Of a DNA stretch of 20,376 nucleotides, positions 415 through 20,376 are shown piece after piece. The DNA comes from Spirogloea muscicola (taxonomy: Eukaryota; Streptophyta; Zygnematophyceae; Spirogloeales; Spirogloeaceae): positions 4,397 through 24,772 of the forward strand of contig WELB01000197.1 in assembly GCA_009602725.1 (NCBI GenBank). The letters are read 5' to 3'. A model generated the notes under the pieces. It had not been told where the DNA came from. It saw only the letters and a program-made list of their open reading frames with translations, and did not search any database. The position numbers were made by a program, and so were the translations under genes. The number at the start of each line of letters is the position of its first letter. The first letter of the stretch is position 1.

Positions 415-3400
415 ATGGACGTGGCGCTGGCGTTCCTGGGCGTCGGCTGCAACCGCACCGCGCGCGCGCTCGCCTGGGGGCCCCACGGCCTCGCCGCCTT
501 CGCCGCCCACCACGCCGTCGCCATCTACCTTCCCCAGGTCCCTCCTTGCCCCGCGCCCCGCTCTCCCATCGCCCTCGCCCTGGGCGCCCCCCTGACTGCG
601 CCCTGGCGGCGGGCGCCTGCAGGCGGCGAGGCTGCTGCTGACGCTGCGCGGCCACACGGCGCGCGTCAACTGCGTCGAGTGGCTGCCGAGCCACCGCCGC
701 CTCCCACCACGTACTTGCAGCCAGCACCCTTAATCCTGAACCCTCAACCCTTCACCCTAAGCCTTCAACCCTGGAGAAGGACCCAACATGTCAACTGTGC
801 GCTGCACGTTCGGACAGCTCATGCTCTCGCGCCTGGCTCGCAAAGCCCCGCCACTGGACTCCCATGAGACGTGGGGCGTCGGCTGCTGTAGTCGGATTCC
901 AACCATTACTGTGCCATTCACGGGATAGCCATTCAGTCTTGAGGGCATCGACTTTGACTTTGAAGCCCTCCCGCATTATCAAATGTGGATGTCTTGGCAG
1001 AATGCGAGAAGCCTAGCAGTGAGCTGCTGCTGTCTGGAGATGCGAGCGGCAGCATCATTCTCTGGAGCTATGATAGTACCAGTTGCAAGGCATGACCTCG
1101 ACTCCACTGTTGCCCAATGGCCCTATTCTCTGTGAGTCCCGGTGCTTCAGGTCGTGCATCCTCGGCGGAACCATCCCAGAGCCTACACTTCGCCAGCTAT
1201 GTGTGTGACGTCTTCCCAAGTGGTGTGGCCTCCCAGTCCTAGGGTTTAGGGCTAGGGCTTAATGGTTGAGGGGTTTAGGGTTTAGGGTCCAGGATCATAT
1301 CCCTTGGCTCTCCTTCGTGAACTGGAATTGCAACCCTGTCTCCTGAACCCGCTGGTGCTCCTGAGTCATCCTCCGCAAGCAGTAGTATATCTCTCGAGTG
1401 CAAAGACCACACTGTGCTTGCGAGACTGCCAGCCATTTGCGCTTTTGGGAAGAGTCGAAGTGCAAGCCACCATATCACCTTGTCGGCTTCTTTGTCATAC
1501 TATTCATGATTAGACAGTCTTCAGGTCTATTGTCACAACATGCCAACCTGACAGTTATGGAGTGCTTGGTGTACGTAGCGCACTTTCAGTGGGCGCAGCT
1601 TCAGCTTCTCCTCAACGCACATCAAGATGCTGTCACTTGCATAGCTGGCCAGCTGCTGCCGGGTGGCATTGCACTGGTTGCAACAACAGCATCCGACATG
1701 AACACCAAAATCTGGAGTGGCTCATATCAGCAGCCACAGGGTACTTGTCCTTTCTCATGTGCAGCCAAACTTGGCGTGATGTGGAGAGAATGCCTCTGAT
1801 TACAAGGATCTGGGCTCCACGGTAGATTCTTTTGCCTGCTCATATAGGACAGTGCACATAGAACACAGTACAAGCACAACAGGCTCCTTGCCTAAAAGGC
1901 CCTCACTATCTCCTCCGCGCAGGCCTGCAGCTCGAGTGCCTGCAGACGATCCAGACAGGTGCACGAATGATGAGCGCGGTGACATTGAGTTCCCCGTTTG
2001 GAGGCAATCGTATTATCATGGCAGTGGGAGGCGTTGACAGCAGCATCTACTTGTACCTCGGAGGCCAGCATGCTGAGGTGAGGGGCCACCATTGAGATCC
2101 TGCGTGTCACTTCATGCAGGCGCTCTGCTTGTCAGGCCCACCTTGATTGACTCTCTTGCCAAAGCGTCAAGAACTTCAGTGAAAAGCGTCTGCTGGGCTT
2201 GTGCACTGCAGCTTTTCAAGGGTGCAGCATTGATGAGCTTCTAAGCAGCTCAGTAGTGTCGGTGCGCGTGCATAAGGGCAACCAACCTTCAAGGCGCATC
2301 TGTTGACTTGAAGTAGTGGTATGCGGTTGTTGCAGTTCAAGATCCTGTGCAACCTCCGAGGACATCAGGATTGGGTGCGCTCTTTGGACTTCTCAGCATT
2401 GTGTCAAGGTGGACCTGGAGGGCACGAGGGCGCCATATATCTTGCTTCGGCATCACAGGACAAGAATGTGCGGGTTTGGAAGCTGGGCCCAAAGAAGGGT
2501 GCTCTGAATGGTCCAGAGTCAAAGGGTGGGGCAGCAGAGACTGCACTGCCTGGAGCAGAGCCACTTGTAGAGCTAGAGGCTTACTCAACTGGGCCAACTT
2601 TTCTTGTTGACGGGGTAAGCTGGCAAGCATCGCTGGAGTCCCTGCTCGTCGGCCATGAGGACTGGGTCCACTCGGTCCAGTGGCAGCCCTCAGGGAGTGC
2701 AGAGGCAGAATCCACTGAGCAGGAACCTCAAAAGAGGAACCGCGCAGGGCAGCCCACATGCCTTTTGTCCGCGTCCATGGACAGGAGCATGCTCCTGTGG
2801 CGACCTGATCCTAAGACGGGTCTGTGGATATGCGAGGTCAGTGTCGGAGAGTTTGGCCACACTGCTCTCGGATTCTGGGGAGGCTTGTGGTCACCTGAAG
2901 GGGATGCTATACTTGCGCACGGTTTTGGAGGATCCCTGCATCTCTGGAGGAAGTCTGCCTCTCCAGACTCTGGCGAGCAGTGGACTCCGCAGCTTGTCCC
3001 CTCTGGACATTCTGGGCCGGTGTCGGATGTGAGCTGGGACCGGACTGGCAGCTTCGTGTTGTCAGCCAGTCATGATCAGGTAGGCCAGTACTGTGGCTCT
3101 CCTCCCAGCAGCGCACATACTTCTGACCCTTTAACTGCTCGGTGCAATTGCTTGCCCTATTAGCGTGCATACGATGAGGTCTTCGTGGTTCGGTCAAAAT
3201 CAATGCCAATGACGTGCACATGCAGACTAGCAGGATCGTGGCATGCTGGAAATGGCCTCCCGATCATCATGCAGTGGACCACCAATCTTGGCATGAGATT
3301 GCTCGCCCTCAGGTGCTTGTTCGTATTGACGCCCTACGCTCTCTTTGGGTAATCGTAGAAGAGAGACCTCAGCATTTCACATCTGTGAGCCAGCCAGCTG

Positions 3401-5484
3401 CAAGCTTCATCCAGGACACTTGCCCGTATGCAGGTTCACGGTCATAAATTACAATGTGCAGCCCAAACAAGTGGCAGCAGGACTTTCACATATGTCAGTG
3501 GGGCTGAGGAGAAGGTGGCTCGCGTCTTTGAGGCGCCCCTGGCGTTCCTGAACACTTTGCGGCACACCACAGCTGGCGGTCAAGCTGTGGAGGAAGTCCA
3601 CGTCCTCGGCGCTAATATGTCAGCTTTGGGCCTCTCGCAGAGGCCCATCTATGCTGGTGAGCTTGTCCCACTCGGCAATGCATTGCGGAAGACAAGCGCT
3701 GCTGACAAGAGCAGGATTCCGTTGTATGGCGCAGCCCAACCCCTTGCAATCTGACAATGAGAAGGGCAGACGTTCAGTTGTCCAGGGTGTTACTTTCTCG
3801 TGCAAGTGAGCGCTAGTGTGGGGCCATGCCAAAGCCTGTTCTTGTATGCAGAGGAAGGCTGCTGCAATTCTCAGCTTTGAGACAAACTCAGGGTACGTGG
3901 AGTTTGCTATGGACTGCAGGTTCTCAAGCGGCATCAGACTCGCGACCAGCCAAGGCAAAGCTAGATATCACAGAAGACCTCCCTGATGCGCGCCCCTTGG
4001 CACTCTCTGAGCCCCCACTGGAGGAGCATCTGGCGCAGAACACATTGTGGCCGGAGACGCACAAGCTGTACGGCCACGGGAATGAACTCTTCTGCATGGC
4101 TGCTGACCATCACGGCATATATCTCGCCACAGCTTGCAAGGCAAGTACGCGTGTGACAGATCGAAGAGCACACACTCCATTGTGGCAGTTGCAGATACAG
4201 ATGTGCATTCGCCACTGTCTGAGTGGTTGGTGGATTGGTTGCGTCAGGCACAATCTGCGCGAGAAGCTGATGTTCTTCTCTGGGAGATGGAGTCCTGGCG
4301 AGTCGTCGGCAAGCTGGCAGGACACACCCTGACAGTCACACAGATTGAATTTTCCTGGGACGACCGCTTCATTCTGTGTGTTTCCAGGGACCGTCAGTTG
4401 TCTGTATTCCAAGCTGCCACCGAGAGCAGGGATGTTGAGCAACCAGGTGAATAAGTGCTGCTCATTCTTCTAAGCCAAGACATCCCAAGGATCAGCCATA
4501 GGAGCTCAAGGTTGGCACCGGTGCTTGCAGGCAACCGCAGAACCGTGAGCCATGCTTGCATTTGTGAAACCCAACTGTGACATCGGCAGTCACGAGACTG
4601 ATATGCCTCTGTCTCTTCCATTCTTGCTGTCAGGACAGGCGAACATGGACAATAGCCCATATGTACTCCTCGATCATGTTGCCGCTCACAAACGGATAGT
4701 ATGGACCGGGTCATGGGCACCAGCCAGTTACATGTTTGCTACAGGCTCCAGGGACAAGCTGGTGAGTAACAGCATGCAGGCAGCTAGATTGGAAGTTGCC
4801 CAAAGTACCTCCTGATGCACCGTGTGCTTCGTTGCTTAGACTACCTTCTGATGCCACCCTTGCTTCGTCAAGCCACAATACGACACAAGGTGCGGTTGTT
4901 CATCAGAAGGCAACCAGGAGAGCAACTCTGGTACTTGGCAAGCAGAGCAGTATTTGGGATGCTGACGCATTATTGAGCACGTATGTACATTTGTGCTTTC
5001 ATTGCAGGTCAAATTTTGGGAAATTGCAACCAGTGAAGACGGCTCGCCTGTTAACAGGCACTTGATGACACTTCCTGTCTTCCGCAGCAGCGTGACTGCA
5101 ACTGCGTGCAGTCCGAGCCGTTTCTCGGACGGATCACTTGTCTTGGCTGTTGGCACGGAGGAGGGATCCATTGAGGTCTGGAAGATGACTTTGGACGAGC
5201 AGGACAGAGAAGGCCCGACCTCAACAGCGTCGAGACCTGAAGCAGCTGCGCTGACTGACTCAATCCGAGCACATGGTCAGCAGGTCCAAGCCATCGTGCA
5301 TTGCACGAGGCTTGTCAGCTTTGATGTGCATATGTGTCATGTTGCTGCCGTGCTTCGCCTGCGCTGGCAGAAAGTTGGGGACTCCAGGACCTTGGAAGAA
5401 CGTCCAGAGGCAGATCCTATAAAGCTCGCGTCGTCGGGAGCAGACCACTCTGTCCGCATTTTTGAGGTTTCTGTGAGAGTCTGA
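415..5484 (+). CDS. ELP2: Elongator complex protein 2 (WD40 scaffold), 12 exons
   Basis: ELP2 pairs with ELP1 and ELP3 in the Elongator core, which modifies the wobble uridine of tRNAs (cm5U family), mainly in the cytosol. Predicted exons: 415-537, 623-710, 1001-1089, 1590-1740, 1923-2077, 2336-3079, 3226-3312, 3434-3656, 3920-4140, 4248-4446, 4634-4761, 5008-5484. All phases agree, giving about 894 residues; known ELP2 proteins are about 800-840. Diagnostic segments run in family order: GCNRTARALAW at the N-terminus, GHTARVNCVEWLP, GHQDWVRSLDF, GHEDWVHSVQW, GGLWSPEGDAILAHG, GHSGPVSDVSWD, SWHEIARPQ, FTYVSGAEEKVARVFEAP, GHTLTVTQIEFS, AHKRIVWTGSW, FATGSRDK and the terminal SSGADHSVRIFE. They build the two WD40 propellers. 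ATG 415 is chosen because it begins right at the conserved N-terminus; an in-frame ATG at 217 is possible. Introns 3 and 9 use GC donors. The last exon may hide a small intron near 5284-5345, where the reading is less family-like. The longer introns (711-1000, 1090-1589) hold telomere-like repeats and no other gene. Confidence 0.9.
727..773 (-). repeat. degenerate telomere-like repeat in ELP2 intron 2
   Basis: Runs of CCCTTAA, CCCTCAA, CCCTAAG and related units, the complement of TTTAGGG-type telomeric sequence. It lies inside intron 2, opposite in orientation to the block at 1237-1291. It is short and diverged, so it is an interstitial relic and not a telomere. Confidence 0.6.
1090..1589 (+). 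other. GC-AG intron 3 of ELP2 (about 500 bp)
   Basis: Exon 3 ends TGCAAG and is followed by GCATGA; exon 4 begins after CACTTTCAG. This join keeps phase 0 and links the WD strand ending in SYDSTSCK to the next unit at WAQLQLLLNAHQD, as expected for ELP2. No GT donor nearby gives a matching phase. The intron contains a telomere-like block and otherwise nothing I recognise. Confidence 0.6.
1237..1291 (+). repeat. TTTAGGG telomere-like repeat in ELP2 intron 3
   Basis: Contains GGGTTTAGGGCTAGGG and then GGGTTTAGGGTTTAGGG, the plant/Chlorella-type telomeric unit with minor variants. It sits in intron 3, about 460 bp from the oppositely oriented block in intron 2, so the two flank exon 3. Confidence 0.75.
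4141..4247 (+). other. GC-AG intron 9 of ELP2
   Basis: Exon 9 ends TGCAAG and the intron starts GCAAGTAC, the canonical GC-donor context; the acceptor is TTGCGTCAG. The join gives ACKAQSAREADVLLWEMESW, which matches the conserved ELP2 region where a Cys-Lys-Ala precedes a strand ending in I/V-L-L-W. This is the better supported of the two GC-AG introns. Confidence 0.8.
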
Positions 5485-6068
5485 TTGAGCATGCTCGGCC
5501 CCAAATCAGGCCTCCACTGGCACGAAGAAAGCCTTGAAGCAAACACGTATGGCAGAAATGCAGATTGCTGTGGTTCCTACAAGGGCACTGGATCTGCATG
5601 CCGCCCAACCATCTGTTCCACTGAGGCTCCTCGCAAGTGGAAAGATAGCGGTGTTTAAGTTGATGAGGCCATACTGCTCCTATTCTTCCAACGTAGTTGT
5701 CGGTGTGACTGACCTACTTCAGCCTCTTGCAAAGAGCAACTCATGCAATTTGACAGGGCGCGGAGGCCACGAGGCTGCATGCTTAGGTGGCTTGCTCCTG
5801 GCACCATCTGCGCAACCTGGCAACCTCTCCAGAGCAGAACTGGCCAGCAATGCCAATAGTTGGCTTCCTCGTCCAAGCTTACGCCGTTGCTTGCCCCTGC
5901 AACCTGCCGGGAAGATGGGGCTGCTTCACAGAGCAATCAGGTGCCTCTTATAAAAGAGCCAGGGGGTTGAGCGCAGCCCCATTCATGGTCGCCATGACAA
6001 TGCTGGTCATAGTGACAGGGTTATGTGGCAGTCCAAAGATGCGAGCGGCTGGCGTCATAGCCCAATGC
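5485..6068. other. convergent intergenic gap, no gene seen
   Basis: Holds the 3' UTRs of ELP2 (+) and the TMEM115-like gene (-). Short open frames here show no family resemblance. A TATAAAAG string at 5949-5956 has no plus-strand gene after it. I found no TGTAA polyadenylation motif on the plus strand. Confidence 0.6.
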
Positions 6069-7642
6069 TCAGACACTCTCCACCCCACTCGGCACAGAGG
6101 ACAGTGGCAAGGAGGCTGGCGACTTCTCCTCCGTGGGCTCCTTGCCAGCTGGCTTGACATCCACCACAGCCAAGCGCTCCTCAAGAGCCCGTGCACCACG
6201 CTCCCTGCGGATATCGATGACAATTTCGTCACAATGGCTGATGTATTGTGCCCCATTGAGCTAGCCAGATCGCAAAGAGATGCCCATTCTCGATGCTTGA
6301 TTGCGACTAAGAGGAACAGGAACATCCATAACCAGCTCCTAGGGGCAACCCAGGCTTTGCGGCCCCAGACCTTCTCCGTGAGGCTTCAATGGGGTCCGAG
6401 CCAGGGAGGGGCTTGGAAGCAACATCGTCGCCCTGATCTGCAGCAGCCGCGGCTAGCCTCCGGCCGCAGAAGACCGCCTCAGCCGCGTTGGCAATTGGTC
6501 GGATGACGGGCCAGCAGAACTCGGGGAAGAACGTCACAAATGCAAACTCCTCGTTCGGGTCGCCCTTGAGCGCGCCATCCGACTTGGGCTGGAAGTAGCG
6601 GAGGTACAGCCAGCTGCCGTACATGCCATAGAGGATGAATGGGAGGCCCAGGACGACGTCCCCCACCGCCGCACACGTGACGATGGAGATCACCGCCACC
6701 AGCGAGGGTACCCACTGCCCATCGAGTCGCCAGACTGTAAGTCAGCGGCAGTCCGTGATGCTCCTGGCCACCTGAGATCGTCTCCACAATTTCCTGCCCA
6801 GCCAGGCGTGGGGCTCCGGCAAGCACTGGATCAGACTTGTGGCCCTCACCTTGGCTCGAAATTTGAAGACGAAGAACGCCGTGATCTCCTGATCGGGCAT
6901 GAGCTGCTTGACGGCGACCAGCAGTCCGGCCACGACCCCGTGGAAGCCTGATATCCGCGCATAACTGCCAGGTAGGGTGGCCCACGGCTCATGGGCGATG
7001 CATGGTGTTGCAAAGGTGACGGTGGCACGTGATACTACATGGAACGGGGCAGCGAGGGTGTGCGGCTGTCCGAAAAACGGGGGGCAGGCGGGGGGGTTTG
7101 CGGGCCGCCGGCCGGGCCCAGAGGCTCACAGGAAGTTCTCGGAGTAGGTGGCGTAGAAGAGGGCAATCATGGTGGCGAAGGTGGCGGCGGCGAGGGCGGT
7201 GTTGACAACGACGATGAAGCGCAGGAACTCCTTGGAGCCCCAGATGGGCTCCACGAGGCGGCCGACGAAGAGCAGCGCAAGGACGTCCACGACCAGGCTG
7301 ACGGGGGACTGCTCCAGGTAGCCCGCCGTCACGACATTCCACCCGAACGGAATGGTCCTAGTGGACAGGGGCGGGCGAGGATATTGAGTGTGTGTTGGTC
7401 GATGGAGGGCCTGAGTGGCCGAGTACAAGGCAAGCACGTTGGCAGGGGAGCGGAGGTGAGGCAGGCAGCGGAGGGGGTCTCTGGAGCGGTGTCGGGCTTG
7501 GGGCTTAGTGGGGCCCGAAAGCGCACTTAGCGGGCACGAGGGCGAGGTAGTCGACCGCAGGCGGCGCGAGGAGGGAGAGGGCGTAGCCGAGGGCCAGGAG
7601 CGCCGCCAGCGCCTTGGACAGGCGCGTGAAGCCGGAGAGCAG

Positions 7643-7674
<32 letters not shown>

Positions 7675-7684
7675 GCGGCACCAT
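6069..7684 (-). CDS. TMEM115: TMEM115-like / rhomboid-like Golgi membrane protein, 5 exons
   Basis: TMEM115 proteins are multi-pass, catalytically dead rhomboid relatives of the Golgi, linked to COG-dependent retrograde traffic. Exons on the minus strand: 7684-7527, 7357-7130, 6964-6850, 6714-6371, 6204-6069; phases match and give about 326 residues. Family landmarks in order: first membrane helix (about residues 24-41), TIPFGWNVVTAGY (54 on), GRLVEPIWGSKEF, a second hydrophobic stretch, SGFHGVVAGLLVAVKQ with PDQEITAF, a hydrophobic pair around VGDVVLGLPFILYGMYGSW, then the cytosolic tail PLPGSDPIEASRR joined by the last intron to RERGARALEERLA. That join restores the conserved tail. The ATG at 7684 opens just before a run of ten glycines; no better in-frame start is visible. 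No catalytic Ser-His rhomboid dyad is evident, as expected for the family. Intron 1 carries a LINE 3'-UTR fragment, and a LINE tail lies about 200 bp upstream of the start. Confidence 0.87.
7385..7440 (-). mobile_element. short LINE 3'-UTR fragment in TMEM115-like intron 1
   Basis: The minus strand reads GTGCTTGCCTTGTACTCGGCC and then AGGCCCTCCATC. This matches the 3'-UTR of the copies ending at about 9870 (-) and 10990 (+), both of which carry GTGCTTGCCTTTGTAC followed by a small GGCC/GGCC palindrome. Only about 55 bp is recognisable. Confidence 0.5.
7643..7673 (-). repeat. (GGC)n microsatellite encoding poly-glycine
   Basis: About ten CCG units on the plus strand, read as GGC on the minus strand, give ten glycines right after MVPP in the TMEM115-like protein. 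Confidence 0.85.
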
Positions 7685-7889
7685 GCCGGCGGCGCAGAGG
7701 GGCCGCCCTCCTCGGAGGCTGCGGCCGCCCTGGCGTACTTTGTGCAGCCCTGGCCGGCAGCGGAGAGAAAGCAAACAGTGGTTGCTGATGGTAACGGGCG
7801 GCTGTGACAGCCAGCCTGCATACGAAACGTGTACTACGTGAGCTCCGAAGCGGGAGCCGGGCGGACCCCCCGCCCTGGCCTCTCACCAT

Positions 7890-8150
7890 TGCAATTGCAC
7901 TTGCCTTGCACTGAAAAAGAGGTGGCTCTCCCAATGGCGGCAAGGGCTGTGAGAAGCCAGCCCGAATACAATAGACAAGGGCCGAAAAGGTATTCCGTGT
8001 ACAAGAAACAAATGTAGGCCAAATGGCCAAATGGCCGAAGGGGCCAAACGACGAACGGGCCAGAAGCGCAATTCTCAAAACTGGGGTAGGATGAATCACT
8101 CAATCGCAACGAGTGAGGAGACTCAAATCCGACAGACTAGCTTAGCGGGA
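7890..8150 (-). mobile_element. 5'-truncated LINE-like copy 4
   Basis: The minus strand reads SLSDLSLLTRCD and stops at TGA (8102-8100), a degenerate form of the family C-terminus. The long 3' UTR has both family hairpins: the GGCCATTTGGCC block near 8015-8040 and GGGCTG/CAGCCC at 7944-7963, then ATTGGGAGAGCCAC. It abuts copy 2 in the same orientation and ends about 200 bp upstream of the TMEM115-like ATG, in sense with that gene. Confidence 0.65.
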
Positions 8151-8164
8151 AACAATCAGAAGAA

Positions 8165-8561
8165 GGGCTCGCCCGTAGAGGATGAAGGCCACCCAAAATG
8201 GAGTGAACAAGGTGCGAGAAGGGGCCAGGGGAAGAGGAAGCGCGGCCAGAATGACTGGTGGCTAGGAAAGCACTAAGAAGAACAACGCGGCTAAGCAGCT
8301 ACCAAGCTCTCAGTAACCCCTGCTAAGCAGCCGCAAGTCAGAGAAACTTGACTCCTGGAAGATGGTCCCCAGGCCAGGGCCACAGGCGGCAGCGAGAGCA
8401 CGGCCAGCATGCAGGTGCAAAGCGTGGGCCATGGACTGCTGAAGGGATGTGGAGAGTCGCATGCATTGAAAGAGCTCTTTGGCCAGGCTTGCGTGGCGCG
8501 CTGTGTCCCGCAGGCGCGGGGTGAGCCGGCTGACTTCAACGCGGCTGGCTCGTGGGCTCAA
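8165..8561 (-). mobile_element. 5'-truncated LINE-like copy 2
   Basis: The minus strand encodes QQSMAHALHLHAGRALAAA and, after a short gap, FSDLRLLSRGY ending at TGA (8312-8310). The 3' UTR aligns with copy 1 (the GCGCTTCCTC and CTGGCCCCTTCTCG blocks), although its main hairpin is broken. It is head-to-head with copy 3 and tandem with copy 4. Confidence 0.7.
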
Positions 8562-8650
8562 GTGTATCGTATAAGATTGTCAGTACCCCTTCAGCGGTCC
8601 ATGGCCCACGCTCTGCATCTGCGTGCTGGCCGTGCTCTCGCTGCGGCCTC
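8384..8650. repeat. inverted repeat between LINE copies 2 and 3
   Basis: 8384-8446 (minus) and 8586-8649 (plus) agree at all but about six of roughly 63 positions, separated by about 140 bp. This follows from head-to-head insertion of two copies of one subfamily. Confidence 0.7.
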
Positions 8651-8900
8651 CGGCTTTCGTCAGGGGGATAGTATTGCGGCAGCTTAGTCTGTCGGATCTG
8701 AGGCTCCTCACTCGTGACTACTGAGTGATCCATCCTCCCCCTGTTCTGGCATAGCATCTTCAGGCCCCTTTGTAGCTGCTAAACGCTTCTAGGCCCCTCC
8801 GAACCTTTGTCAATTCTAATTGGGCTGGCTGTTCGCAGCCCTTGCCCCCATTGGGAGTGCCACTTCTTCTTCTTCTCTCCCAACGCTGATGTGGTGGGCA
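8575..8900 (+). mobile_element. 5'-truncated LINE-like copy 3, frameshifted
   Basis: QRSMAHALHLRAGRALAAA is read from about 8594. A frameshift follows, after which another frame gives LSLSDLRLLTRDY and TGA (8722-8724). The 3' hairpin is GGGCTG/CAGCCC (8822-8841), then CATTGGGAGTGCCAC and a CTT-rich stretch. Its first 65 bp are a near-perfect inverted repeat of copy 2. Confidence 0.65.
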
Positions 8901-9440
8901 CGAAGAAGAGGACAAGAAGGAAGTGTGCCGCTTTCAGGAGTATCGTCGAGGGCCTCCTCCCCTGCAATTACAAGGACCACCCCCAAGGAGACCACTGCTG
9001 ACCGTGCGTTATGGTACTTGCGGTGACTATGGCATGAAATGGTCCTCCCTCATCCGCACCTGACGGGCCCCGACTGATTGATGCGCGTCGTTGAAGTCGG
9101 GGGGGCAGCTTGGGCCACACTAGCATTCCGCCGGCATTGGTTGCATATCACAGAATAGGGCTTTCGCTTATTTTGCAGCGCTTGAAATCTCTGGCCATCA
9201 ACGTGCTGGGCGCACTCTTAAGTCGGCCCACCGGGTTCCGTGGCGGCGATCCGACTCCCCAAGTTAGCTTGCGGATTTGCATGTGCTCACCCCTAGGAAC
9301 TAACATCACGCTGTTACCTTAGCCACCTTAGCACAGCGCTTCGTTTCATGTAGCCCTATTTTGTTGCACTAGTCTATGCATGAACAACGTATTGCCTTGA
9401 ATTTGGCCTTCCCTTTCATTTCATGCGCACCGCGCGCCTT
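8900..9440. other. stretch without recognised gene
   Basis: About 540 bp between LINE copies. No open frame resembles a known family, and I could not fold a convincing tRNA or snRNA. It may be older, unrecognisable element sequence. Confidence 0.5.
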
Positions 9441-9495
9441 CTCTCCTGCTGCTATCACCCGACTTGTTGCTGCTGTCTATCAGGGGTTGCTGAGT
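9440..9495 (+). mobile_element. very short, degenerate LINE tail (copy 5)
   Basis: Reads DLLLLSIRGC then TGA (9491-9493), which lines up with SDLLLLTRGY of copy 8. Only the last codons are recognisable. Confidence 0.4.
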
Positions 9496-9539
9496 TGCTA
9501 TGCGCAGTAGCAACTTGTCTTGCCTAGTGGCTTGCAGGC

Positions 9540-9710
9540 AGAATGAAGCGGGATACCGCCAAGAGCAAGCGCGGCCACAGTAACTGGAGGCTGGGAGAGG
9601 CCAGCCCAAAGGAGTGGACAAGGTCTGAAGGAGCCGGAGTGCAAAGAAGGTGCAAAGGACTAAGAGCAAGGCGCCACCGCGGCACAGCGTTCGATCCGGC
9701 CCTCCCTCGG
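9540..9710 (-). mobile_element. LINE-like 3'-UTR fragment with hairpin
   Basis: The minus strand resembles the 3' UTR of copies 8 and 10: CTCTTAGTCCTTTGC, CTTGTCCACTCCTTTGGG, then a GGCTGG/CCAGCC stem (9589-9606). No coding tail is left. Confidence 0.5.
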
Positions 9711-11589: not shown

Positions 11590-13832
11590 ATGGCCGCCGC
11601 CGCGCCGGCTNCGACGCCCGCCCGCCGCTGCAGTGTGCTGCCGGACAGCCTGGAGGACGCGGTGCGGCAGGCCAGCCAGGCGACCGCCCTCTTCGTCAAG
11701 CAAGGCGGCGCTCGTGCGGCGGTGACACCCGGCCCTCCTCTCGTCCCCTTCCCCACCTTTGTCTTGCAACCGAGCAGCTGGCGGTAGTGGCTGCTGTCGG
11801 CTATTTCTCCTGCGAATCATGGTCGAGCTGTGCTGCTCAAGGCCTCTGCTGCCACGGCAAGGAACGGAACACGTCGCAGACATGGACGGGCCTCGCACAC
11901 CAGCCCTCTGCTGCGCGAGAGCACTGCTGCAGAGGTTGAGGAGGCCCGACATTGCAGCTCACTGGAACTGAGCCCCGTCCGTCCCCCTCGTCAGCACACC
12001 GGCTCTCACTGTCGGCTCCTGAATGACTCAAGTGACTGATCCGACTGAGCTCCCCTTTCTTGGTGGTGCGGCGGGGGAGCAGGTGGAGTTGCAAGCGCCC
12101 GAGCTGGAGAACTTGGATGAGGAGGGAGCGCAGGAGCTCGTGTGGCAGTGTGCGCGGGCGTTCATTGACTGCGTTCGAGATGAGATGGGGCCCGAGGTGG
12201 GTACCTTTGCATTTGAGCTGCCGGTGCAGCGGGGGGAGGCACTGAGATGCCTGGCCGGTCATGGCCCTGGTCAGCCCTCAGCTTGAACATCAATTGGCGG
12301 TTGGGCTGGGAGGATGCTCTGTTGTTGTAGCTGGCCCAGTCCCTCAGTCAGCGAGCCGACCAAGGCCATGCTTGCCAGGGTCGACTTGCCAATCACAGCC
12401 CTTTTGAGCGCATGGCAGCCATTAATATGGCCCTTGCAGGCTGCGGCAGTGGGTGCCGCGCACTGAGACAATGGGCTGTTTGGCCGTTGTCATCAGCAAC
12501 GCTTGAAGGCCATCTTTCCAGATACAGGCACGGCCGCCATGCTGCAAAACCAGTGGGCCGATGTGCCCTTCAAGATAGGCAGCCTCAGCGACCGCAGAGG
12601 CATCAGCGGCGAGGAGGACATTGTTGTCCTTGTCACGCCGGGCCACCAGGAGCTTGCGGAAGCACAGCGCGTCGCTGCCACGCTGGCAGAGATGGATGGA
12701 CCGGTATGCGCCACCACTTTGTGCATGCAACTTTGCTGGTCTTTGGCAGCACTGATGACAACTCAGTCAGTCCCTTCTGCCTTCAGCACTCACCTGCCCA
12801 TCAGTAAGGCCCCAGGCTTTGCATGCTTGGCAGGGGACCTGTGTGTGGGCAGGGGCACCATGGGGCCTGACAGCCGCCGCTGTGCTCCCAGATGGATAAG
12901 CTGCTTCAGTCAAATAGCCGCAAGGTTGTCTTTGCTGCTCACGCTTGGGGTCGCACGGTAGCCTTTTTGGGTCAGGGCCTTGGGCAGATTGAGGAGCCAT
13001 CATCTTTCTTGAGCTCCTCGCAGCCAAAATCGTTGATCTTGTGGAACCAGCGGTTGATCAGCGGGGATGTGGGCATTGGCCTAAATGTGCGGAGGCTGCG
13101 TGAGCGATTCTTGGCGTGAGTCCACAGCTTTTGCCAGCTCTTCCTTCCCACAGTTGTACTCACTTGCTCCAACAATTGTCTGTATCTTTTTAATGACTAC
13201 AGGCAGCAGGAGCACAATTTCAGAACACTGGCTTTCCGCTGCATGTGTATCACGCAATTAGCCAGGGGTGCAGTCATGACTCGGCTGATTCGATTGAGGT
13301 TCCATTTTGTGCATGTCTCAGTTCCTTCACGACCGTTTATCACTTGCGGCCGCTCTTCATCGGCGCAGTCTATCGCCGCTACCCTGGGTATGCCTTATTC
13401 TATGCCTGTACGCTCTCTGCAAATTTGCCAGGACTTTTCATGAGAGAAGCAGAGTCCAGTGATGCGTTCGGTTTGCCAAGCAAGGCTTCATTGTACTGGA
13501 CGCAGGCCTTGGAAGCTGTTCCTAGACGACAAAGAGAGGCCAGGTCGCTACCTCCTCTCGCATGAGCAGTGCGACCGGCCCACCTTGGAGGATCTGGATG
13601 TGAGACAGTCCCTTCCAAAGATATTTGAGGTGCCGGCGAAGCACTCGGCGCTTGATCTTGATCCGGTGCACATGTCTGAGCAATAACCTGGTGCTTGCGG
13701 TTGACGGTGTTGTTGCAGAACCTCATCATTACAGCTGAAAGCGGCAATTCACCTGGCGGTCCTTCTCCTGTTGCCAAGGCGGCAGGCCTCTTCAGTTCCA
13801 TATCTCGGTTTATGAAGGCATTGTCTCAGTAA
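11590..13832 (+). CDS. DUF1995-domain protein (LPA3-like family), 7 exons
   Basis: Predicted exons: 11590-11721, 12083-12196, 12497-12703, 13024-13115, 13322-13387, 13506-13599, 13719-13832. Phases agree; about 272 residues. The DUF1995 pattern is followed through: LPDSLEDAVRQASQAT near residue 18, KQGGARAAVELQAPEL across intron 1, AIFPDTGTAAMLQNQW, EEDIVVLVTPGHQELAEAQR, LILWNQRLISGDVGIGLNVR, RFLASFTTVYHLRPLFIG across intron 4, VYRRYPGPWKLFLDDKE across intron 5, GRYLLS. Family members such as Arabidopsis LPA3 are plastid proteins helping photosystem II assembly; others are uncharacterised. Only about 16 residues precede the domain, so a transit peptide may lie in an unrecognised upstream exon. 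Base 11611 is N (codon 8). Introns 1 to 3 (about 300-360 bp each) contain nothing I recognise; an extra small exon near 12891-12957 is possible but not needed for phase. Confidence 0.85.
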
Positions 13833-14001
13833 GGACAGAATGATGTTACAAGCAAGAAAGCAGCGAGCAAAACATCTTCTTCGCTGCACTGACAAATTTA
13901 CGTGGCAAGCACACCCTCAGGAGGTGGAAAATTTTCTACAAAGACCTTGAGCCGTATTCGCTCCATCTGAAGTTCTTGTGCTATCAGACGCTAAAGATAC
14001 G

Positions 14002-14006
14002 TTACA
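14002..14006 (-). terminator. TGTAA polyadenylation motif for the kinase gene
   Basis: The minus strand carries TGTAA, the usual green-algal polyadenylation signal, about 75 bp after the predicted stop at 14081. A second TGTAA lies at 13850-13846. Confidence 0.45.
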
Positions 14007-14080
14007 AAGCAGTCAGCAGGCTGCTCTCAAACGACACAAGAGTGCGTGTTTGAGCAAAAATATGCGTGTGACTTGCCCCT

Positions 14081-16491
14081 TCACCTGCGCCGCTTTCCTA
14101 CAACAAACACGTCTCCCAGCTTCTTCAGCTCTCTGCTCTTGATGGAGCCTGCGAGTTCCCACCAGAAGTCTCCCTGTCCATGCTCACCAGCATCCTCTGC
14201 AGATTGAAGCGGTGAGCGATCGGCCGAGGTACTAGCCTTGCCCAAGTCCTTGGTGACGAGCTCTTGGCATTCTGGAAGTCGCATCGCTGCCGGTGACCTC
14301 CCTGCTGAGCCCCTGCCCGTGGCACCTCTGCCCCTTCCCCTGCCCCTGGAGCAACCCCTCGCACCTCGCGCACCTCGCCCACCTCGCCCGCCTCGCGCAC
14401 CTCGCCCACCCCGCCCACCTCGCCCACCTCGCTGCCCAGCACCCCTCCTCCCAACAAGGTCATCTCCCTGCACCACGAGCTGCTGACGCCTGGGCCCTGT
14501 GCTGGACGCCTTTGGCAAAAGCTCAAGTGCTGTGGATGTCAAACAGCCTCTTCGTTTTGGGGGCCTTCCTCGCTTCTTGGCGGCAGGCGGAGCAGCAGCT
14601 TGTCCAGCAGGTGTCGTACAGGGCGTCCGAATGAAGGTCTCAGCAGCAGGAGCAGGAGCTGCAGGGCCATCCACCTCGCCGCCATCAGCACCATCGCACT
14701 CCTCCCTGTTCAAGAAATTCAAGGTACTCATGGTCAGCGTGGGGTAATGAGAGCCTCAAGCATGACAAGGTGTGCAGGTCTCAATGACGAGGTCACTGAG
14801 TCAGCGTTGTACACAAAGAGGCTGGAGAACGTCTCGCTGTCAGAGTCCGGCGCGCGTGGCGAGCCAGACTGGCGCGGTGGCTGAGGATCTCCAAGGCTGG
14901 CTGCGCTGTGGCCCATGGATGCCTGGGACGCGGCGTCCTCATCCTGCCTCATGGGCAAGCCCAGCTGCCGCCGTGCGCGCTGCGAGCGCTCCCGCTTATG
15001 CGACACCACATCTAGCGGGCCCGCCAGGGGGTGTACGCCCTTTTCACTCAGACCTCCAGCCTTGTCTCTCTGTTCTCCTCCTGAGGGTATCATCCCTGCC
15101 TTCTCGCGCCTCTGCGACTCCACTCCAGCCACGTCCTTCTCTGCACCTACCACATTCTGCTCTGCACTCACGATCGACTCTGCGTCGTGATCGTCCCGGG
15201 TCTTGGAGGCTGGCGTCCCCACACTCCTTCCTCCCTCCATCACATCTCCTTCAGGACACAGCGCCCTTTGGCCAGCCTTGTGGCAAGCACAAGCAGAAAT
15301 AAGAGCATCTGCTGCGTGGTCCCCCAGATCACATTGAGTACTCCTGCCAGTGGCTGTCACTGCTTGCAGCTTGTCGTGGCCTGCCAGTGACTCAGCCTCA
15401 AGTTTCACAACCGAGGTATCACAGTCTGCATCCTTGACTACTGGCGCCGCACAGCAACGATTGAGCATTGCATTGGTTGCAATTTGCCTAGGAGTACTAT
15501 CACCCTGATCGAGCGTGACATTGTCTGCAAGGAATCAAGGATAGACACATGATGGTTTAGTACTGGGAGTCATGTTTGGAGATAGAGAGGAGAAGATACG
15601 AGCAGCTGTGCAACAAACACTTCCAATTACTCTGTTTCTCTAGCTGCTCTAGAAGAAAGGCTGCAAGTATGATGTAAGCTGCTCTAAGAGTTCTCTTTGA
15701 AGCAGCTGAGAAATGCGCCGGATTCAACACACCTGCAGGTAATTGTTCACCCAATTGCTTGGTCGAGGTTGGTTCACCCTCTTGGCTGCTGGTGACAAGT
15801 TCCCCAGGAAACTGGCACAGAAGCAAAGCAGCATAGCCCCAGAGAACACTTGCTTCAGCAGTAATCTTGCCAGCTACCGCAAAGCTTATCATACAGCCGG
15901 CAAGCATGGGCCCATTAACATCCTGCAAGAGGAGAGATTGCTGTCCCTGACACGTGATTGCTGAGCGCGAGCCAGACCTGCTCAGAGCAGGCCTCAACAA
16001 TGTGCTGTGGCATGTGCCAGTTGCCAGTGGACCGCTTGTTGCCACTGCCAGGGTTTGCCACCGCTCCTGTCGTTGTTGCAGGGCTTGAATGGCGAACCTG
16101 GTAATTGGGCTTCTTATCCTTGTCAACTAGCGCAGGGCGCCCACCTGCAATGCTTTCCTGGCGTTCCACGTCATTTTGCTGGCACTCATGAGTGTCCATA
16201 CAGGCTGGGCTGCGACTGCGGCTGCGGCTTCGACTACGATGAGAAACGTGACGCTGACTTGCGCTCCGGCTGCGTCTACAGCTTCTACTTGTGCTTTGAT
16301 CTGGACTCCAACTCCGACTCCGGCTCTGGCTCCGACTCCTGCTCCCGCTCCGGCTCGGATTCTGGCTCCGACTTCGGCTATGGCTCCGGCTCCGGCTCCG
16401 TCTCCGGTTCCGGCTCCGGCTCCGGCTCCGGCTCTGGCTCCGGCTCCGGCTCCGTTTCCGGCTCCTGCTCAATCTCCGGCTCCTGCTCAAT

Positions 16492-16564
<73 letters not shown>

Positions 16565-19500
16565 TACAGCTGCGACTTCGGGTGTAACTCTGGCTTCGAC
16601 TTTGACTACGGCTGTGCCTTTCTGAGCTTGCAATCTGCCTCCGGTGATGATAATGCTGTCTCTTGGTTGCCACTTGGAGCTGGGGCCTGCTCCTACTGTG
16701 CTCGTGCTTTGTGCGGCCACCACCATCCCGACCCTCACTCACAATGTGCCGCTCACGGTCTCTGTTGCTCCAGCTTGCACCGTGAAGTGCGTCCCGAGGA
16801 AGTAGACCAGACAGCAAATACTCTTCTTCCTGCTCACACATCAATGCTGTCAGACTGAGGATTAAAATCTGTCAGTACGCCATCCTAAGTACATCAAGAG
16901 CTCACAGTGCATGGCTGTTTTGTTAGCCTACCCGTCAAAAGACACAAATGTCAACAAAAGCTGGACAAGCAGACAATGGCTTTTGGAACTAAGGCATTAC
17001 GTATTAAATAATGTTGCCTCGTCCTACCTCTTTTGCAGTCCAGTGATAGCATGGACATGCGGCTGAAGCATACGGACAGGTCCTCAGCAGCAGCTCGCGA
17101 CACAGTGAAGTAGCTCTCGTGGGCGGGGACCTGTTGTGTATAATTGTAATCAGTGAAGCCATGAAGCTTGCTGACCCTGACGGGGGGACCTGTTGTGTAT
17201 AATTTTAATCAGTGAAGCCATGAAGCTTGCAGACCCTGATGGTTGGATGGGTCAGGGGGTGATGGATTGCGGCTGAGCAAGTCCTACCTTGCTGGGTGGA
17301 GGTCAGGGCAGCCATTCCAACAGCAGCCGCCAGCAAATGCGGCCTCCACGCACACCTGCCGCTTTGTACCCCGCTGCCGCGTCGGGCTATTGATGCGGCT
17401 GCCTCCTGGTGAGTCCCTCCAGTCCCTTGACGCACTTCTTGCTAGCAGTGGCTGCTCCTCATGGTTGCTGCGGCCGCCGCCCTTCCAAGTGGGGGATCCA
17501 GAGTTCCTGCTTCGGTGCAAGTGCGCACACATGGGGCTCCCCAGTGGCCTACCAAACTGACCATCGCGAGCGTCAAACCGAGGACTGTGCACTGACCCGC
17601 ATGCAAGCGGCATCCGCCCTCTTGCTGCTATCCTTCCAAACGGGCGCAGCTCGCCTCGTCGGCCATCCGGCGAGCGGTCAGAGGAGTTGCTCCAACGAAA
17701 CTCACTTCGTCGGCCAACAGGGGAGTGAGCAGAGGGTTCCTGCCAGCGCCAGCTGCTGCGCAGCTCTGCACCCCCAGATTGTTGTGCCCTTCTGTCGTGA
17801 TGCGGAGAGAGTGTCTGCAGAAGTTCGCATCTACCCCCATCCTCCATGAGGTCTGGCGGTTTCTCCGCTGGTGTCACTGGAGCCGGTGCAGCAGGTGGAG
17901 GAGGGCGCTGCTGCTCGTGAGCGTCTGCGGAATGCTCCCTTGAGGCAGTCGTGCTCAAAGGCAGAAGGCTGCTCTCTGCTCCATCCAGCGGCATGCGCAT
18001 GTCGTTGTCAGCCGCCGAGGCCCGAAGCCCCTGCATTTGCCTGCGAGGAGATCTGATGCAAAGATGCTCATACATCATGGAGTGATCAGTGACCCTGTGC
18101 ATGAGTCTTAGACTGCCTCGCAAGCTGCAGCGCACGCATCAAAAGGCTCCTGAGGCTGTTTCCTTGCAATAGACCTGTCATGGAGAGCATCCCCTGCCTC
18201 GACTGCCATCTCCCAGTCATATGGGTCGGAGGCCTGCAGCATTGCGAGATCAAGCTGTCAGATGCAAACAGAGACTCCCCAGTGCATGCTGATTGCCATG
18301 ATTGGCAAGCCAAAGCTAGGCCATCGCTGCCGCCAAGTCGAAGCTACCTGAGGAAGCCAAGCAGCACAACATATCTGTGCAGCTTGGACTTCGTGAAATA
18401 CTGACATCTCACAAGATCCACACAGAAAATTTAGATGCTCGAAATACCTTACACCCCAGTCGCTGCTGCGCTTTGACGAGCAGCAGGTGCAAGTGCTGGT
18501 AATCTGGCTCGTCCTCGAATGCAAGCATTCTGAGGTGCTCAACGAAAGCCTGCCTCAACAAAAGGGGGTGAAGAAGCACACGTAAGCATTCCAAAATCCA
18601 CAGTGATGTGTGCTTTGCATGTTTCGTGAAGAGAGGCCACCACAGAGCCCGCTGCAAGAGCCACTGGGCTCTTGCGTGACGCTGTGCATGGACCTGCAAG
18701 TAGCTGCACAGCTGCTCATGACTGAACAAGCCACACAGCCCCAAAGGGGTAGGCGTGTGTCACGCCACTGCCCGGTGACTGATTGCACTCCTTGAAATGG
18801 GTGGGAAGAGCGCAACAGGCCATACCAGGAGCTCTTCGGGAAGCTTCGTGGAGCGCATCAGCATCTGAGGGTGCTTGTTGTAGTGCTCCTTGAGAGCACC
18901 CACCTTCGCCTGCAGGCGCCCGACCGGGACAGCACCCAATGGTCTCAGACAGCAATGCCCCAGAAGACACAGCGGCCAGCAATAGCTGGCAATGAAAGAC
19001 CAGTCGTAATCCCAGGGAGGCACCTTGTTGGCCATGTTCCGCCAGGGGAGGTCACCAACGAGGAGCTCTACAAGCACGTAGTAGAGAGACCACAGGTCGT
19101 CCCGCCGACCCAGGTCCTGCAGCCAAGACCGGAGCTAAGGGCCAGTAGTCAAGACGAGTATGGCCGCTTGATGCACCCTCACCGACTCACAGTGACCGTG
19201 AGGGTGGACCATGAACGTAGCAACACTCCATGCACAATGTGGGGCTGTGGGCGCAGGCACTGGTCGGGTGGACGCACAAGCACGTGGATGGAGCCTGCAG
19301 CGCGCACGTGCAGCGTGTGGGTGGGCTCGTGTACCTTGCCGGAATGGGCGTACACCGACGCGTAGGCAGAGGAGCCGCGGAAGGGCACGCCGTCCCGCTG
19401 CGGCTGCACGGCGCCTTGGGCTGAGCGGAAGCTCTTGCAGAGCCCAAAGTCGATGATGTAGCAGCGACCGGCCGCCTCGCCGCAGCCCATGGCGAAGTTG

Positions 19501-20376
19501 GACTGCAAGGACCCAGGCAGCTCGACCAGCCCCGCTGAAGGCATCGCAGCGCGGGAGCTAAACCTAAATCCAGCTGCGGCGCGCAGTGCCATCGGGTCCG
19601 GGACGGCAGGCGACGCTTGCGCGAGCGGCAGGTGCTCACCGGCTTGACGTCGCGATGCACGAACCCCAGCTCGTGCATGCCCCGCAGCGCCTCCAGGAGC
19701 TGCAGGACCACAGACGCAAGGCAGCCGTGACAGCTGTCGCTCCCACTGGAGACGAGTGCGAGTGCAGAGGCTGCTGGCAGAGCTCGCCGGCGCGCGGCGG
19801 TTGCGGCTGCAGCACCTGGACGGCGAGGCGGAGGGTGGTGCTCCAGGACAGGCAGCCGCCGGGCTGGCGGCGCCGCAGCGTGGAGAGGCTGTCGCCCAGC
19901 AGCTCCATGGCCACGTAGCTTCGGCCCTCGTGGACGCCCGTGTGGACGTGCCGGCAGACGTGCTCGCACGCTGGCCATAGTGGCGCCACACAGAGATAAG
20001 CGAACGACGCGACGGGTGCGGCCTCGGAGACGGGGCGGCGAGGCCGGGCAGCGGCGGCGGCGGCGGAGGGCTTGAGGGGGCGCACGCTGGAGCTTGGCGA
20101 GGATGGCGGCCTCCCAGCGCAGCACGCCGTCCAGCTTGCCCACCTTCACGGCCACCAGCTCGCCGTTGGTCACGTCCGCCACGCGGTAGATCTCGCCTGC
20201 GCGCCCTCAGTCAAGGACCACACCAGGCGGCAAGCGGCAAGCGGCGGAGGCGGGGAGAGCGCGCGCGGCGAGCATGGCGGATACTGAAGGTGCCCTCGCC
20301 GATCTTGCGGTCCACCACGAAGCGGCCGCCCAGCACGGCGGCGGCTCGCAGCAGCGGCGGCGGCGGCGGCGGCGGC
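14081..20376 (-). CDS. TTBK-like protein kinase with CCCH finger, RS domain and AT-hook/RGG tail (5' end outside window)
   Basis: Predicted minus-strand exons: 20376-20285 (partial), 20196-20086, 19970-19816, 19699-19640, 19502-19335, 19116-19024, 18909-18826, 18549-18448, 18233-18114, 18030-17288, 17176-17028, 16846-15978, 15922-15733, 15524-14813, 14705-14081. All join in phase, giving at least 1,423 residues. Numbering from the window edge: poly-Pro 1-7; kinase 18-300 with glycine loop GEGTFSE (26-32), Lys48 in VAVK, HRDVKPSNFAMG (134 on), DFG 157-159, [30 protein letters not shown] in part, and PYDWE near 292. This is the tau-tubulin-kinase branch of the CK1 group. A linker (about 329-550) is followed by a C-x8-C-x4-C-x3-H finger (Cys555, Cys564, Cys569, His573). 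A dense RS domain falls in about 650-830, an acidic low-complexity region in 980-1215, then an AT-hook core (KKRGRPPK) and RGG repeats. Kinase identity is firm. The one-gene reading is inferred from phase; the last join (14812-14706) has a weak donor, and the protein may instead stop at 14734. Confidence 0.7.
14340..14450 (-). repeat. 9-bp-type repeat encoding the RGG/RGA box
   Basis: The plus strand repeats CCTCGCCCA-like units; the minus strand reads Arg-Gly-Gly and Arg-Gly-Ala repeats, typical of RNA-binding or condensate-forming tails. The low-complexity DNA may vary in length. Confidence 0.7.
16370..16566 (-). repeat. (CCGGAG)n hexanucleotide repeat encoding Arg-Ser dipeptides
   Basis: The plus strand carries long runs of GGCTCC; 16495-16565 is almost pure, with about 12 units. 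The minus strand gives AGCCGG, that is Ser-Arg, repeated. It forms the core of the RS domain of the kinase fusion. The plus strand reads Ser-Gly across the same repeat as a by-product. Confidence 0.85.
17125..17242 (-). repeat. 59-bp tandem duplication containing a 3' splice acceptor
   Basis: 17125-17183 and 17184-17242 are near identical. Each carries, on the minus strand, an acceptor (CCGTCAG or CCATCAG) followed by an exon start reading KLHGFTD. In the downstream copy the next codon is TAC and the frame stays open ([14 protein letters not shown]). In the upstream copy it is TAA. The unit length is not a multiple of three, so only one acceptor gives the long protein. Confidence 0.8.
20355..20376 (-). 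repeat. (CCG)n run encoding poly-proline at the window edge
   Basis: GGC units on the plus strand are read in the kinase frame as at least seven prolines just before the kinase domain. The run continues past the window. Confidence 0.75.

Follow-up and report, generated by a model that had tools for sequence, protein, structure and literature searches.

A candidate algal gene joining a TTBK-type kinase to CCCH-like fingers, an RS domain and an RGG stretch in one predicted protein

Does one gene of the alga Spirogloea muscicola place a TTBK-type kinase in the same protein as CCCH-like fingers and an RS domain, and what might such a protein do? We asked this of a 20,376-nucleotide stretch of contig WELB01000197.1 (C197:4397-24772, in a 153-Mb genome assembly of 471 contigs), hereafter the window, whose coordinates are used throughout unless stated. 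The original prediction had joined fifteen minus-strand exons without a phase break into a TTBK-like kinase followed by a CCCH finger, an RS domain of about 200 residues and an AT-hook/RGG tail. Our tests rest on comparing the window copy of the gene (A) with a second copy (B) on contig C426. The best explanation, which we hold at a probability of about one half, is a single 14-exon gene predicted to encode a protein of ~1,270 residues with a TTBK-type kinase, two CCCH-like fingers, an RS domain, an RGG stretch and a basic C-terminus; it would be a nuclear kinase held by its tail near RNA or splicing factors.

By alignment, A and B are 86.7% identical over window positions 11594-18661 and 89.8% identical over 18594-20376. 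Since the adjoining stretch 620-7886 is also alike (89.2% identity to C426), the pair probably reflects either duplication of the region or divergence between haplotypes. The 14-exon minus-strand model, running from 20375 to 14081, keeps its frame open in both copies; leaving aside the initial Met, the coding sequence up to the stop comprises 1,266 codons in A and 1,244 in B. The start codon of A falls just past the end of the window, where the contig reads N, and B begins at the sole in-frame ATG downstream of an upstream in-frame stop. GT-AG borders were found in both copies at 13 of 13 introns, the edges of the tail exons having been picked while viewing both copies. All four exonic indels between A and B (72, 6, 3 and 9 bases) are multiples of three; for intronic indels the count is 6 of 26.

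The kinase occupies exons 1 to 9. Joined, with a slightly different exon 2/3 join and a read-through at the end, these match PF00069 in Pfam at 6.3e-27. The N-lobe begins in exon 1 (20285-20375, placed by the TTBK alignment and the B start; 89/91 bases identical in B) and the domain continues through exon 2 (20086-20196; 111/111), exon 3 (19816-19970; 148/155), exon 4 with HRDVKP (19640-19699; 59/60), exon 5 with SNFAMG and DFG (19335-19502; 163/168), exon 6 (19024-19116; 90/93), exon 7 (18826-18909; 75/84) and exon 8 (18448-18549; 99/102), ending in exon 9 (18175-18233), where DPYDWEMA aligns to ...AFDWEKA of TTBK1. The best PDB matches were chains of TTBK1 and TTBK2, with E values from 1.6e-73 (TTBK1) to 5.2e-73, against 3.8e-42 for the best CK1 match, CK1 delta. 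The TTBK alignment takes in residues 5-289 of a 298-residue query: it starts at the glycine loop, includes HRD-KPSNFAMG and extends as far as the final DWE-A segment. Both copies have the catalytic Lys and the Asp residues of HRD and DFG (VAVKV, HRDVKP, DFGL). By these comparisons the kinase stands nearer to TTBK than to CK1, VRK or other kinases and is TTBK-type, within the CK1 superfamily, as first predicted. No SRPK- or CLK-class kinase appeared among the best 60 of 1,332 PDB matches. When the first 215 residues were searched against the genome, 24 matches appeared: C197 and C426 had five each, and other contigs the remaining 14; beyond the first two contigs, the best were on C209, C244 and C325 (E 7e-7 to 1e-6). 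The C209 kinase, the one of these three that was fetched, has a MUT9-like look and a catalytic loop reading HGDVKPENFLLG, which we take as a mark of the MUT9 type. In A and B the loop reads HRDVKPSNFAMG and so is not of that type. Intron 7 of B carries a 79-base insertion that looks like a tandem duplication.

Whether kinase and tail form one protein turns on the junction between exons 9 and 10. An intron at 18113-18031, between 18114 and 18030, was rejected: it leaves A open, but in B the donor is AT rather than GT and a one-base deletion lies nearby. A donor 60 bases upstream (GACAG/GTCT), used with the acceptor GCAG/GCAA, is present in both copies and in phase 2 in both; it defines intron 9 (18041-18174), and the spliced junction reads ...ALHD-R-Q(M or K)QGLRAS.... 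Differences between the copies change character at its borders. The ratio of nonsynonymous to synonymous differences per site (pN/pS) is 0.17 in exon 9 (3 synonymous, 2 other), 0.90 in the read-through beyond its donor (2 synonymous, 6 other) and 0.25 over the 40 codons that open exon 10 (5 synonymous, 4 other), all of these values resting on small numbers. Neither the stop that ends the read-through in A (18110-18108) nor the ATG at 18036 exists in B. The shared phase-2 intron, this switch in pN/pS and the loss of stop and ATG argue for the predicted union of the kinase with the CCCH and RS parts, and we infer that one mRNA carries all the exons. TGTAA is the algal poly(A) signal. In A it occurs at 18453, within exon 8, and next at 14006, 75 bases beyond the stop, with none between; in B, in that copy's own numbering, it occurs at 5565, within intron 12, and at 3431. 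This spacing hints at one transcript.

The tail opens with exon 10 (17288-18040), a linker leading to a first CCCH-like finger at 17352-17296 (C-x8-C-x4-C-x3-H). A join of 17288 to 16846 was tried as the next pair of exon edges and rejected, as it reads SIDV-stop, that is, a stop after four codons. The claim of an unbroken phase therefore fails at this point: the in-frame chain of minus-strand exons stands, with 14 members rather than fifteen. Exon 11 (17130-17028), within the stretch that had been skipped, fits phase 2 to 0 and supplies a second finger at 17102-17043 (C-x7-C-x6-C-x3-H). The stretch is located on both C197 and C426, and the exon is identical at 100 of 103 bases; two of the three differences are synonymous, leaving one amino-acid change in 34 codons. 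A frame-keeping skip of exon 11 would need 16854, and because a skip to an acceptor before that position keeps the frame, exon 11 may be a cassette exon. Within intron 10 of A (17235-17131), a tandem duplication of ~58 bases repeats the exon 11 acceptor CACAACAG/GTCC, of which B has one unit.

The two finger patterns start at residues 538 and 569, with 12 residues between them. Using the range C-x(7-9)-C-x(4-6)-C-x3-H, which was set after viewing the sequence, residues 306-665 were shuffled 20,000 times; a single shuffle gave two patterns no more than 60 residues apart, and 76 gave at least one. B keeps eight of eight presumed ligands, one of them next to a Cys outside the ligand set that B replaces with Arg; among the other aligned residues of exons 10-14 it keeps 14 of 21 Cys and 20 of 29 His. 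We go no further than to call the fingers CCCH-like, and suppose that they may bind zinc and RNA.

Exon 12 (16145-16829) carries the RS domain at about 16616-16212; it was assigned on its RS content, its in-frame 72- and 6-base indels, both deletions in B, and a ratio of nonsynonymous to synonymous substitution rates (dN/dS) of 0.44. The domain is present as predicted but shorter, at 135 residues, with 80 RS/SR pairs and 79% Arg plus Ser. We also tried an exon 12 extended beyond 16145, which is open and free of indels to 15977, but its pN/pS is 0.81 and its end phase misfits exon 13; it is possible as a minor form. No RRM was found among the Pfam matches of the window frames 18036-17287, 16835-15915, 15534-14734 and 14755-14081, nor among those of the joined finger and C-terminal pieces. 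Exon 13 (14813-15524) is acidic and disordered. Exon 14 (14081-14705), delimited by the A/B comparison, contains an AT-hook-like piece (about 14578-14547), an RGG stretch (about 14431-14297), the C-terminal 30 residues (14173-14084) and the stop. The RGG stretch is kept in B. The AT-hook could not be retained as a conserved feature and that part of the prediction is weakened, because its GRP core in A has become GRL in B (KRGRLPKRRG). Apart from this loss, the order of kinase, CCCH, RS and AT-hook/RGG parts first proposed was recovered in both copies.

We then asked of the A/B comparison how far the tail is constrained. By the Nei-Gojobori method, dN/dS is 0.39 overall, 0.18 for the kinase and 0.44 for exons 10-14. 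When the 216 differences observed in exons 10-14 were placed at random in 2,000 neutral runs, 145.0 +/- 6.1 amino-acid changes were expected; 117 were seen, a count as low being reached in none of the runs. A stop was created in 1,998 of the 2,000 simulations, and B has none. Taken singly, exon 12, exon 13 and exon 14 gave counts as low as those observed in 20, 13 and 11 of 2,000 simulations; exon 11 by itself, with only three differences, was not significant (694/2,000). The strongest constraint lies in the finger pair (dN/dS 0.10; 6 synonymous, 2 other), the back half of exon 13 (0.20) and the C-terminal 30 codons (3 synonymous changes, 0 other), and the piece preceding the RS domain reaches 0.73. 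Constraint on the tail is patchy. The last 30 residues (14173-14084) form an unnamed conserved C-terminal motif.

Several observations weigh against one protein built in this way. Since the tail exon edges were picked with both copies in view, the agreement of splice sites is a mark of consistency and not an independent test. The TGTAA at 14006 of A is TGTAG in B. Pfam returned no match for either finger in either copy at E values up to 10, and on this point the predicted CCCH finger, whose spacing and conserved ligands stand and which gains a partner in exon 11, falls short. A PDB search with the finger piece gave nothing significant (the C3H1 protein 9y10 at E=0.41), and single-finger AlphaFold models were poor (predicted local distance difference test scores, pLDDT, of 61.1 and 53.4) and were not used. 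Exon 10 by itself was not significant (203/2,000 simulations as low), its linker being weakly constrained at dN/dS 0.72. Finally, the RS part contains GAGCCG repeats, whose length might change by drift.

How might such a protein work? The make-up of the tail, which combines RS and RGG parts with two CCCH-like fingers, makes tethering to RNA or nuclear speckles plausible. The RS domain would be phosphorylated by resident SR-protein kinases; so modified, and together with the basic C-terminus, it would bring the protein into the nucleus, where the fingers and the RGG part would retain it on RNA or a ribonucleoprotein and the tethered kinase could act on neighbouring RNA-processing proteins. Phosphorylated RS domains serve as nuclear localisation signals, and a Plasmodium CK1 has been linked to the splicing pathway (PMC6381282; articles given by PMC number are cited from extracts). 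CK1-family kinases are tied to many processes, and the MUT9-like kinases among them are nuclear (PMC7084540).

Next to this stands an unlikely alternative, though the one that holds up best among its rivals: a TTBK-like kinase working on microtubules, basal bodies or cilia, with a mostly disordered tail in which the RS and RGG parts are incidental repeats. The kinase domain is indeed TTBK-type, and the RS and RGG lengths differ between the copies. TTBK2, moreover, acts in ciliogenesis, and its long segment outside the catalytic domain is proposed to localise the kinase and recruit its substrates (PMC4407412). Yet constraint on the finger pair, the back half of exon 13 and the C-terminus (dN/dS 0.10, 0.20 and 0) matches that on the kinase, so the tail is not free filler.

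We think it rather doubtful that the kinase, self-targeting in the original prediction, phosphorylates its own RS domain and thereby switches RNA or speckle binding. Kinase and RS domain do share one open frame, and RS-bearing kinases such as CLK and PRP4K phosphorylate RS domains. The kinase here, however, is outside the SRPK/CLK class by the PDB comparison above, and nothing computed lends support to self-targeting. The reported preference of TTBK2 is for phosphotyrosine at +2 (PMC4407412). An RS repeat provides none, and RS self-phosphorylation, though possible, is for that reason not favoured.

A bicistronic mRNA, from which leaky scanning would yield the kinase and the CCCH/RS protein as two products, is possible, but it fits worse than one protein and we regard it as improbable. 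Such genes are frequent in green algae (PMC11291117), and the locus resembles them in having two nearby open frames on one strand. The A read-through of intron 9 stops 72 bases ahead of the ATG at 18036, and an in-frame ATG near 18001 is present in both copies. In the green-algal cases the first frame has a median length of 357 or 291 nt and ATGs before the second frame are depleted, to medians of 0.49 and 0.43 of expectation (PMC11291117). Here the first frame is long and rich in ATGs: up to where exon 9 ends it counts 923 coding bases, with 11 ATGs in A and 12 in B where 8.2 and 8.5 are expected. A phase-matched intron lies between the parts. The intervening stop and the 18036 ATG lack counterparts in B, and the read-through evolves at the pN/pS of 0.90 given above. 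Least probable of all, in our judgement, is a pair of alternative forms, a short kinase from transcripts that keep intron 9 and the long protein from those that splice it out, perhaps with exon 11 as a cassette. In A the read-through stays open as far as 18108, and in B a little beyond that; the exon 11 skip keeps the RS frame with eight added codons (1 synonymous change, 0 other). The read-through ends of A and B differ in frame and length, however, which a conserved short isoform would not be expected to show.

Around the gene, the window holds a WD40 gene at 2312-2950 on the plus strand (Pfam WD40, 7.8e-11), presumably Elongator subunit 2-like, and a DUF1751 membrane-protein gene at 7126-7357 on the minus strand (Pfam DUF1751, 2.7e-18), which we take to be TMEM115-like. 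Between neighbouring genes, 7917-9548 is crowded with repeats in both orientations, pieces of which are common to C426 and C103 in another order. A third copy of the WD40 and DUF1751 region lies on contig C103, which says nothing on the kinase gene because the expected site (C103:420150-430886) is N. Several genes occur in three diverged copies (C197, C426 and C103; C209, C244 and C325), the pattern of a triploid, a hybrid or a haplotype-resolved assembly. The genome also gave 68 exon matches to the chlorophyll a/b-binding family; a frame from this set matched plant-type chlorophyll a-b binding proteins of the PDB, with E values down to about 1e-101 for single-domain chains, which suggests the green lineage.

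Each part of the predicted protein is of a known kind; what we did not find described is their order, kinase, CCCH-like pair, RS and RGG, on a TTBK kinase. Open-access PMC text yielded no TTBK/CK1 kinase with CCCH and RS parts, which is not proof of absence. Pattern searches for relatives gave 279 stretches in a genome contig collection and 71 and 80 in a viral one, with 0 confirmed in either. A call for caution comes from one study that reportedly attributes new kinase architectures claimed for chimpanzee to artefacts of gene prediction. TTBK1 and TTBK2, and Drosophila Asator, share with our gene the kinase domain and a long non-catalytic tail; that of TTBK2 bears an SxIP motif and has a proposed part in localisation and substrate recruitment, and the extract of PMC4407412 describes no CCCH, RS or RGG part in it. 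The MUT9-like kinases (MLK/PPK) of plants and algae are alike in belonging to the CK1 superfamily, in being nuclear, as proposed here, and in their place in the green lineage (PMC7084540). The MUT9-like gene on C209 is set apart by its catalytic loop; over a 6-kb stretch, its minus-strand frames of at least 70 residues contain no more than 4 RS/SR pairs and lack any CCCH-like pattern.

For the fingers, the nearest comparison is with TTP and MBNL, which are tandem CCCH proteins. They too have two C-x7/8-C-x4/6-C-x3-H patterns close by; here the patterns are C-x8-C-x4-C-x3-H and C-x7-C-x6-C-x3-H, 12 residues apart, without a Pfam match and fused to a kinase. In contrast to classical SR proteins, the long stretch of RS dipeptides is accompanied by no matched RRM. 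A similar design is that of CLK, PRP4K and CDK12/13, CMGC kinases whose polypeptide includes an RS region that is thought to recruit them to the splicing machinery. Kinase and RS region share one chain there as here, but the present kinase is TTBK/CK1-type, its RS domain follows the kinase and CCCH-like fingers stand between. To our knowledge, RS-tailed kinases come from the CMGC group only. We offer tentatively, as a proposal with somewhat less than even odds, that in this algal lineage the machinery of RNA processing captured a TTBK kinase. One protein, its CK1-superfamily kinase carried to RNA by the tandem CCCH pair, the RS domain and the RGG tail, would then add a fourth kind to the RS-tailed splicing kinases, with an origin outside the CMGC group. 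If so, the RS/RNA-tether design would have arisen a second time, on another kinase branch. TTBK kinases have been studied for tau, tubulin and cilia, and confirmation would tie the family to RNA processing and provide a compact system for asking whether an RS tail directs a kinase to splicing.

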